From: an uncultured Isosphaeraceae bacterium
Lineage (GTDB): Bacteria; Planctomycetota; Planctomycetia; Isosphaerales; Isosphaeraceae
Direction of reading: 5' to 3'
Length of the DNA: 64,000 nt
NCBI GenBank assembly: GCA_945957605.1
Contig: CAMFLR010000002.1
Location: 124,001-188,000, forward strand
Each line of letters opens with the position of its first letter. The first letter of the stretch is position 1. Both the position numbers and the translations under genes were made by a program. The notes below the pieces were generated by a model. The model did not search any database. It was given only the letters and a program-made list of their open reading frames with translations, and had not been told where the DNA came from. Below are positions 6,265 through 7,504 of the stretch, piece by piece.

Positions 6265-6679
6265 CGTGTTCGGTTGCGTGTAGATTGGTGCGTTTTGTGA
6301 CATACCATTGTCGCTGATCGATCTTGGACCGGCATCAATTTCGCAAGCCAAACGGGCGCCGACGCACACCTTTGTGGTTCGTGACCAAAAGTCACGGCAA
6401 ACAGCCTTGTTGCTTTGACGCACCATTCATGCATTCGAGATTGAATTTAGTGTTCTAGCGGTCAACATTTGGCAAATTCGAGCGTAGAAAGGGAGGTTCA
6501 CGGTGTCCCCGCGCAAGTGTTTGTGCGTTTTATGTACGTCGTGAGTTTTTTTGTTGACATACCCTCACCTGAGCTATAAATAGCAGCCTCTGCAAGTGGG
6601 TTTTTCGAGCCAGCGGGCATGCCGCCGCTGGCTTAGTGGGTCGGCTGGTTTTATCGCTTCATCTTCAGAGGATGCGTGT
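6265..6679 (+). promoter_or_regulatory. Upstream region and promoter of the dyad-less XRE regulator
   Basis: No gene is evident. A seven-T tract runs into GTTGACAT; TTGACA (6554-6559) serves as -35, and TATAAA/TAAATA (6575-6582) as -10 with 15-17 bases spacing. The transcript would start near 6588. The T7-GTTGAC arrangement recurs at 17649-17661 before another gene. The rest (6265-6540) is A/T-richer than the coding regions and shows no repeat I can identify. Confidence 0.6.
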
Positions 6680-7504
6680 ATGGCGCGACGTAAAAATGCT
6701 CCGGACCTCGTCAAAGTCAAATGTAGTGTCGCCGATCGGTTGCGCGAGATTCGTACTGAGCTCTACGGCGAGCGCGGAGGTCCCGAACTGGCGCGTCAGC
6801 TCAATCTGCCCGTTCGTACCTGGTATAACTACGAGGCAGGTGTCACCGTTCCGGCCGAAGTCATTCTTCGCCTGATCGAACTGACGTCGGTCGAAGCAAC
6901 CTGGTTGCTTCACGGTAGCGACCCCAAGTTCCGTCGCGACGCGGTTGGCTCGTCACTCGGCCAGCCAGGTGCTTCGGTTCAATCCGTTCTGCGCACCGCT
7001 TTGAAGCAACTCGAGCGGGGTGAAATCCCCCTGCGCGAAACGCCGCGGCTCTCGTCGGTCGTCTCGCAGGAAAGCGTCGAGGAAATCGCCAAGGGCACAG
7101 ATAAACATATCGTTCTCGTCGGTGTGGACGACTCGTTTCACGAGCCCCTCACATCCGACGCCGGTCCTCGCTTCATCGCCGCCCGACGCGAGTGGCAAGC
7201 CGCCGAAAGCGATCGCCGCTGTCTGCTCGTTCCCGACGATGCCATGGCGCCCTTGGTCGCACGAGGCGCGTACGTCGCCTACACCGACCAGGATCGGCCG
7301 CTGCTCGAGCTTGAAAATCGCCTGGTCGTCGTCTGGCGATCGGGGTATTCGCCGATTGTTCGCTGGTTCCAGCTTGCCGGACGCCTCGCCCTGCTCCGCG
7401 CAGAGAACGCCGCAACCAATCCGCCGAGCGAACTGATCGAGATCGATGGGTCGATCGATCCCGCACGCTTCCGCGCCGTCTCCTGGATCAGCACGCCCCG
7501 CTGA
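6680..7504 (+). CDS. XRE-type regulator with S24/LexA-like C-terminal domain lacking the catalytic dyad
   Basis: This is a 274-residue DNA-binding regulator. Residues about 15-75 form a helix-turn-helix of the CI/XRE type (LARQLNLPVRTWYNYEAG). Residues about 175-274 resemble the S24 peptidase fold of LexA/CI repressors. In those proteins a nucleophilic Ser lies in D-S-M-x-P and a Lys in V-K-R. Here the same places read DDAMAP (Ala188) and IVRWF (Arg228), so autocleavage should be impossible. The ATG at 6680 follows AGAGG. The gene is monocistronic with its own promoter, and converges on the P-II gene with a 28-base gap. The domain probably dimerises or senses a ligand; targets are unknown. 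Confidence 0.8.
   Translation: MARRKNAPDLVKVKCSVADRLREIRTELYGERGGPELARQLNLPVRTWYNYEAGVTVPAEVILRLIELTSVEATWLLHGSDPKFRRDAVGSSLGQPGASVQSVLRTALKQLERGEIPLRETPRLSSVVSQESVEEIAKGTDKHIVLVGVDDSFHEPLTSDAGPRFIAARREWQAAESDRRCLLVPDDAMAPLVARGAYVAYTDQDRPLLELENRLVVVWRSGYSPIVRWFQLAGRLALLRAENAATNPPSELIEIDGSIDPARFRAVSWISTPR

Follow-up and report, generated by a model that had tools for sequence, protein, structure and literature searches.

A LexA-fold regulator of the Isosphaeraceae that is predicted not to cleave itself and probably controls its own gene

The gene described here, A, lies in a 64,000-nucleotide stretch of an Isosphaeraceae genome (the window) and encodes a protein with an N-terminal helix-turn-helix (HTH) and a C-terminal domain of the S24 fold (Table 1). 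We think it reasonably likely that its product is a non-proteolytic repressor of its own gene, in which the S24 domain would now serve dimerisation and possibly the binding of a partner or ligand. The three elements that mark self-cleaving S24 proteins are lost from the protein, and a palindrome overlaps the -10 of its promoter. The same genome also encodes a paralog, B, with which A is compared below.

Table 1. Features of gene A and its upstream region (window coordinates)
Feature	Position	Strand	Remarks
-35-like element TTGACA of the putative own promoter	6554..6559	+	TTGA recurs with near-constant spacing to the palindrome
Palindrome, candidate auto-operator	6573..6584	+	GCTATAAATAGC; overlaps -10; conserved in relatives
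Regulator gene, family A	6680..7504	+	274 aa, ATG start; ortholog matches full-length from residue 1
XRE-type HTH	6725..6922	+	residues 16-81; HTH_31 in 44/44 aligned members
Conserved predicted helix	6977..7015	+	residues 100-112, inside an otherwise variable linker
S24/LexA-fold C-terminal domain	7166..7501	+	residues 163-274; profiles, PDB match, predicted structure
Ala188, where S24 peptidases have the nucleophile Ser (LexA S119)	7241..7243	+	codon GCC
Arg228, where S24 peptidases have the general base Lys (LexA K156)	7361..7363	+	codon CGC

The reading frame is already open upstream from a GTG at 6596; the tblastn match in every A ortholog begins at residue 1 of the window protein, which makes the ATG at 6680 the likely start. 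Searched alone against Pfam, the window protein gave HTH_31 at E=0.015 and Peptidase_S24 at E=0.25, all under the curated cut-offs. Among the 44 aligned family members, Peptidase_S24 was matched at E<=0.1 by 43 (best 8.5e-14), the one exception being the window protein itself, and all 44 matched the PHROG family phrog_4, a "transcriptional repressor". The DNA-binding family of LexA (winged HTH, PF01726) was not among the window protein's matches at E<=1, and none of the defence and NCBIfam models matched A (E<=1) or B. The segment R46-E52 of the HTH (RTWYNYE) is invariant across the 44 aligned A and B proteins. The sole PDB match to the HTH part was 434 Cro, and it was weak (E=0.26); AlphaFold modelled this part with low confidence, both together with the C-domain and when it was folded alone (pLDDT 52.7). 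Thus the HTH assignment rests on sequence profiles together with the 434 Cro match, in which, as we read the alignment, R46 falls on Gln29, the residue of 434 Cro that reads a G. The order of an XRE HTH followed by an S24-like fold, recognised in the first-pass annotation, is borne out by the family profiles, the PDB match and the predicted structure.

A search of the PDB with the family profile returned LexA structures as top matches, the best being the S119A fragment 1jhc (E=5e-4), and in this alignment A188 lies under S119 and R228 under K156, exactly the two replacements that the annotation had read from the letters. The C-domain was predicted with good confidence (residues 161-270, pLDDT 83-93) and, compared structurally, it matched the folds of both LexA and CI, as the annotation had anticipated: Foldseek found LexA, UmuD and lambda CI C-domains (E 2.4e-4) and VIA-align gave Z values of up to 10.2 (rmsd 3.6, 96 residues). 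The structural matches also include the phage 186 structure 2fjr (Z 6.1) and 4n31 (Z 7.5). We considered that the true Ser and Lys might lie elsewhere in the fold and rejected this, as the profiles put A188 and R228 on S119 and K156 and the structural matches span the whole domain; the profile and structural alignments of the window protein's S24 domain suggested no other Ser-Lys pair.

Self-cleavage of S24 proteins is described as requiring the Ser, the Lys and an Ala-Gly bond (PMC8565304). The scissile bond, which the first-pass annotation had not mentioned, is missing too: no Ala-Gly or Cys-Gly occurs 33-39 residues before Ala188, and the nearest Ala-Gly, at residue 161, is 27 residues before it. 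Such a dipeptide was present in this span in 7/7 LexA rows and in 4/5 Lys-bearing relatives from outside the family, compared to 4/32 A and 2/20 B proteins, where it stands at unaligned places. The same losses extend through the relatives. At position 188, the 32 other A orthologs have 27 Ala, 2 Ser, 1 Thr, 1 His and 1 Asp, and the 20 B paralogs have 12 Ala and 8 Ser. Position 228 is Arg in 31/32 A orthologs, the one Gly belonging to an aberrant copy (L030), and in 20/20 B proteins. The substitutions noted in the window protein therefore recur in its orthologues and paralogs, with Arg at the Lys position in 51/52 relatives and, at the Ser position, 39 Ala, 10 Ser and 3 others. The eight B proteins that keep Ser have lost Lys and, in 8/8, Ala-Gly. 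The aberrant copy was excluded from the cleavage-bond count, from the residue comparison of wider relatives and from the tree described below.

The window protein is thus, by its sequence, without all three elements of the S24 signature. The same Lys-to-Arg change, K156R, is employed in E. coli as an uncleavable LexA (PMC5760743). The claim that the protein cannot be switched off by RecA-style self-cleavage gains support from the three lost elements, this precedent and the same loss in relatives, which support the prediction that it is incapable of self-cleavage. Furthermore, the Ser position drifts while the Arg is held, which suggests that the fixed Arg228 has acquired a new role. It might serve sensing: the cleft with Arg228 and the nearby Asp186/187 would be a pocket for a ligand, or phosphorylation would set the activity of the protein. 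We consider this sensing model unlikely, at about one chance in four. Position 228 does seem selected for a non-catalytic purpose, and the LexA of Synechocystis, without cleavage site and Ser, has been proposed to be tuned by phosphorylation of Ser173 (PMC7567884). However, the gene neighbourhood suggests no ligand, and Arg228 could be purely structural, for example in a salt bridge.

Orthologs of A, one of them aberrant, were found in 33/37 Isosphaeraceae genomes and paralog B in 34/37, as counted by hand from a search of these genomes (G000-G036) aided by translations. Outside the family, one of 22 class-mates was matched, through the HTH only, and a wider search of 246 genomes of the phylum at E<=1e-6 gave 21 with a match, the genome studied here included. 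The S24-bearing relatives outside the family are of two kinds, one with Arg, in which the Ser position is taken by Ser, Asp, Glu, Ala, Pro or Cys, the other with Ser and Lys, and with Ala-Gly in 4/5. In a tree of 70 S24 domains, from which six duplicate, near-copy or badly cut rows had been excluded, Ser accompanies Lys in 11/11 rows, and among the 59 Arg rows Ala occurs 40 times, Ser 11 times and Glu three times, with Thr, His, Pro, Asp and Cys once each; with the aberrant Gly copy left aside, every row has either Lys or Arg at 228. The tree requires one or two Lys/Arg changes, many of its forks being open and its long branches meeting, and a single Lys-to-Arg origin is compatible with it. 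In 8/8 genomes searched with PF00717, a canonical LexA with Ala-Gly, GxSM and Lys is present separately, so A is not the LexA of its genome, a candidate identity that we rejected.

Could A instead be a decaying relic, with a degenerating S24 domain and no regulatory role? Variation is free in the linker and at the Ser position, the copy in G020 (L030) is long and aberrant with Gly at 228, and 4/37 genomes are without A. Set against this, an A frame of normal appearance persists in 32/37 genomes, there is almost no change in the HTH and at Arg228 over many genera, and roughly half of the family genomes have the conserved promoter. We regard decay as very improbable.

The gene order around A is clpP, clpP, tig (-), FHA (+), A (+), PII (-), a gene with no Pfam match (+) and csrA (-), where FHA and PII were named by Pfam and clpP, tig and csrA by reading translations. 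Across loci L001-L030, some of which are cut, an FHA gene adjoins A in 27/30 and PII in 25/30; the aberrant locus is without both, and L025-L027 and L029 are without PII. Both clpP genes and tig are present in 10/10 loci that reach that far, and csrA in 8/11 long loci. The A family had no match among 50,697 phage records. The observation that the gene does not stand beside phage genes thus holds in this conserved neighbourhood as well as in the phage-record search.

A regulator of this kind could be switched by a protein partner, an antirepressor for which the S24 fold would be the docking surface. We give this docking model roughly one chance in three. It has precedents in phage 186, where Tum inhibits CI (PMC7708051), and in the Gifsy repressors, which are described as uncleaved upon induction (PMC3121763) and as acted on by antirepressors; the phage 186 structure is itself among the matches of the C-domain, and the FHA domain encoded next to A could bind a phosphorylated partner. 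On the other hand, no candidate antirepressor gene is found among A's neighbours, and the adjacency of FHA is mere synteny inside a generally conserved block.

The upstream regions of A differ widely from one another; what stays alike is TTGA at -35 and, over the -10, a 12-bp block whose consensus is the palindrome of Table 1. The 15 aligned promoter rows were picked for holding the 12-bp block, so only the sharp drop in conservation outside it is informative. The outer three arm pairs of the palindrome are complementary in 15, 12 and 13 of the 15 rows, and the inner pairs 4/9, 5/8 and 6/7 in 7, 11 and 1, so it is not strictly symmetric. In Singulisphaera acidiphila and its sister, the block reads GCCATATAAGGC, with both arms changed (GCC-N6-GGC), and a second copy, GCTATCAGTAGC, lies 10 bp further. 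The general form GCY-N6-RGC with an AT-rich core was found in 22/33 A upstreams, counts that are not independent because some of these genomes are closely related, compared to 0.56 on average under a Markov model (at most 4 in 1000). In two loci (L007 and L008) the match lies at -194, so the form is at the -10 location in 20/33. The strict form is missing in 11/33, and four of the 13 upstreams without it at the -10 carry a variant in one arm base.

The palindrome is rare elsewhere. The pattern GCTWWAAATAGC occurs once in the 8.84-Mb genome of A, at the A promoter, whereas a control pattern occurs seven times. In ten genomes, GCTWWAAAWAGC has 14 sites: five genomes have it at the A promoter, which accounts for 5/7 of their sites (36 for the controls), and the remaining five have 7 sites, 0 of them at their A promoter. 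Of the two other sites in the genome of A itself, one falls inside a long open frame and the second in the space between frames. A pattern combining the palindrome with the -35 element was found at 48 places in 45 family genomes, with 30 genomes having at least one. In 21/45 it is found 106-139 bp upstream of the start of A, oriented with the promoter in 20 of these and reversed in one (G016), and in those 21 genomes 22/27 places are the A promoter. A palindrome over the gene's own -10 that is rare elsewhere points to autoregulation, and A probably controls its own gene through it, as judged from these sequence comparisons.

Because the palindrome overlaps the -10, part of its conservation is promoter conservation. 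It might therefore be merely the -10 of a conserved strong promoter, or else the site of another regulator such as B or a paralog consisting of the HTH only, with A acting elsewhere. The nearly fixed spacing from TTGA would fit the former. As for the latter, B shares the recognition helix of A and those of the HTH-only paralogs are closely similar, yet the B promoters are without the palindrome, a discrepancy that also counts against our own reading. Indeed, the AT-core form was found in 1/20 B upstreams, and upstreams of HTH paralogs gave one GCY-N6-RGC match in eight and the AT-core form in 0/8. A general promoter motif, moreover, would recur; in Singulisphaera the two arms changed together, and lexA promoters carry a different element. 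We judge this promoter-or-foreign-site explanation doubtful, about as improbable as the sensing model, and prefer autoregulation by A.

Two other explanations of the upstream region were rejected. The palindrome does not look like a LexA box, as 6/8 lexA upstreams displayed carry the different element TGTACATTA, and an RNA leader was not supported, as 17 leaders fold no better than shuffles (mean z 0.03). The six Isosphaeraceae lexA upstreams that share TGTACATTA (L098, L100, L101, L102, L103 and L105, 6/8) make this element a candidate LexA box. The 5' leader of A in the window has a strong 9-bp inverted repeat at 6608-6633 (AGCCAGCGG...CCGCTGGCT), and by eye the leaders of relatives are without a common structure. 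In genus g7 (L091, L093 and L094), A has a shortened linker and a length of about 250 aa, and the palindrome GCCTTAAATAGC stands upstream in 3/3 genomes.

The search for further targets covered the window and 13 syntenic loci, where the A promoter is the sole position at which a GCY-N6-RGC site recurs; in 4/14 loci, unlike matches to this form lie between the convergent ends of csrA and the gene after PII. The free-core motif is too degenerate for searching. Inspection of 12/26 pattern places outside the A promoter revealed no common target, and one of them, which abuts the end of a contig in G035, is perhaps a truncated duplicate of the A promoter. Other targets of A probably exist; the absence of another recurrent target among the places searched is odd for a transcription factor.

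The own-genome paralog B lies at L044:3246-4049 (G000:C2:394302-395045), and 19 further B loci were collected (L045-L063). In 17/22 loci B, which also has Arg for Lys, follows closely behind suf genes for Fe-S assembly that lie on its own strand, and in 7/20 B genes a GC-rich palindrome, CCCG...CGGG, starts 20-25 bp before the GTG start. A role for B as suf regulator is not favoured, because a SufR-like gene (TIGR02702, E=7e-18, below the model cut-off) precedes the suf genes in the genome of A, and homologs do likewise in the other loci reaching it. Upstream of the SufR-like gene, loci L189, L191, L196 and L200 have an AT-rich palindrome, TTTTCGCAA...TTGCGAAAA or GCGAAAAA, which is clear by eye in these 4/13 loci, with related forms in other suf loci, and is possibly a SufR operator. 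In L078, L081 and L088 (G000:C12, G015:C115 and G036:C1), an A-type HTH is fused behind another domain, which may be SnoaL/NTF2-like. The remaining paralogs, of about 90-120 aa, consist of the HTH alone; together these proteins form a lineage-specific HTH expansion. Finally, L118 (G000:C1:905599-905826) is a long open frame with two apparent tandem S24-like stretches near its end; it matches Pfam S24 at E=2e-4, below the cut-off, with weak SMC/AAA matches.

In the mechanism that we propose for an autoregulating A, the protein would pair into a dimer through its retained S24 fold, as LexA and CI do, and bind DNA in that form, and its former active site would have a structural use or provide a binding pocket around the fixed Arg. 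The dimer would bind the 12-bp palindrome over its own -10 as half-site-N6-half-site; the operators of phage 434 also have an N6 core between half-sites. Binding would repress the gene and so keep the concentration of the regulator set. Release would come from a reversible cause, such as a partner or antirepressor protein, a ligand or a modification, or from Clp-type proteolysis, and not from RecA-stimulated self-cleavage. The different signal that the first-pass annotation called for, such as a ligand or protein contact, is one option; the data are matched equally well by a protein that answers to no inducer and does nothing more than set its own level.

Several known systems come close to A. 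The LexA of Synechocystis sp. PCC 6803, described as having Asp for Ser, Gly-Gly for Ala-Gly and functions outside SOS (PMC3091678, PMC7567884), is likewise a non-cleaving LexA-fold regulator. However, it is its genome's own LexA, while the eight A-bearing genomes checked have a separate canonical one; moreover, the accounts of it consulted here describe the Ser loss and mention no Lys loss, whereas A has both residues replaced and an XRE-type HTH. Phage CI-type repressors (phrog_4) share the order of HTH then S24 with A, but A is a chromosomal locus conserved through a bacterial family, has no phage-record match and has lost the catalytic elements. Similarly, 186 CI and the Gifsy repressors are prophage genes inactivated by an antirepressor, and A is chromosomal with a non-phage neighbourhood. 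Streptococcus pyogenes SipA, a signal-peptidase-like protein of the LexA/signal-peptidase fold represented by the match 4n31, has both catalytic residues replaced, as A does (Asp48 and Gly85; PMC12984324), but serves pilus assembly and not DNA-binding regulation. The non-canonical LexA of Bacteroidetes, whose HTH is of the CI type and for which a phage origin has been proposed (PMC8565304), and IrvR of Streptococcus mutans, which autocleaves without RecA (PMC7101444), are chromosomal S24-family regulators like A; according to these accounts they retain Ser, Lys and Ala-Gly, which A does not.

Non-cleaving LexA-fold regulators, doubly replaced catalytic residues, as in SipA, and uncleaved phage repressors are thus already known one by one. 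A core chromosomal family that is without all three elements and combines a fixed Arg, an intact LexA and a near-unique auto-operator did not appear among the literature titles inspected. At title level, the search also returned nothing on Isosphaeraceae LexA, and nothing relevant on transcriptional regulators of Singulisphaera acidiphila, on helix-turn-helix proteins of planctomycetes or Isosphaera, or on LexA/SOS repressors of Planctomycetes.

We tentatively suggest, as a history with perhaps one chance in three of being right, that an old planctomycete lineage of the S24 fold dropped proteolysis by fixing the Lys-to-Arg change, after which the Ser and the cleavage bond decayed and the dead site was re-used around the Arg for reversible sensing or docking. 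The Isosphaeraceae would then have ended up with two core regulators, A and B, beside an intact LexA, with A wired to itself through one operator that is mostly the sole genomic copy.

S24 regulators are readily assumed, by homology, to be self-cleaving SOS or phage repressors, and genes such as A should not be labelled prophage repressors or SOS genes. A whole family in which the catalytic dyad is lost yet the Arg is fixed is a natural experiment on the role of this fold without catalysis, and the conserved palindrome in front of A opens this question to direct testing.
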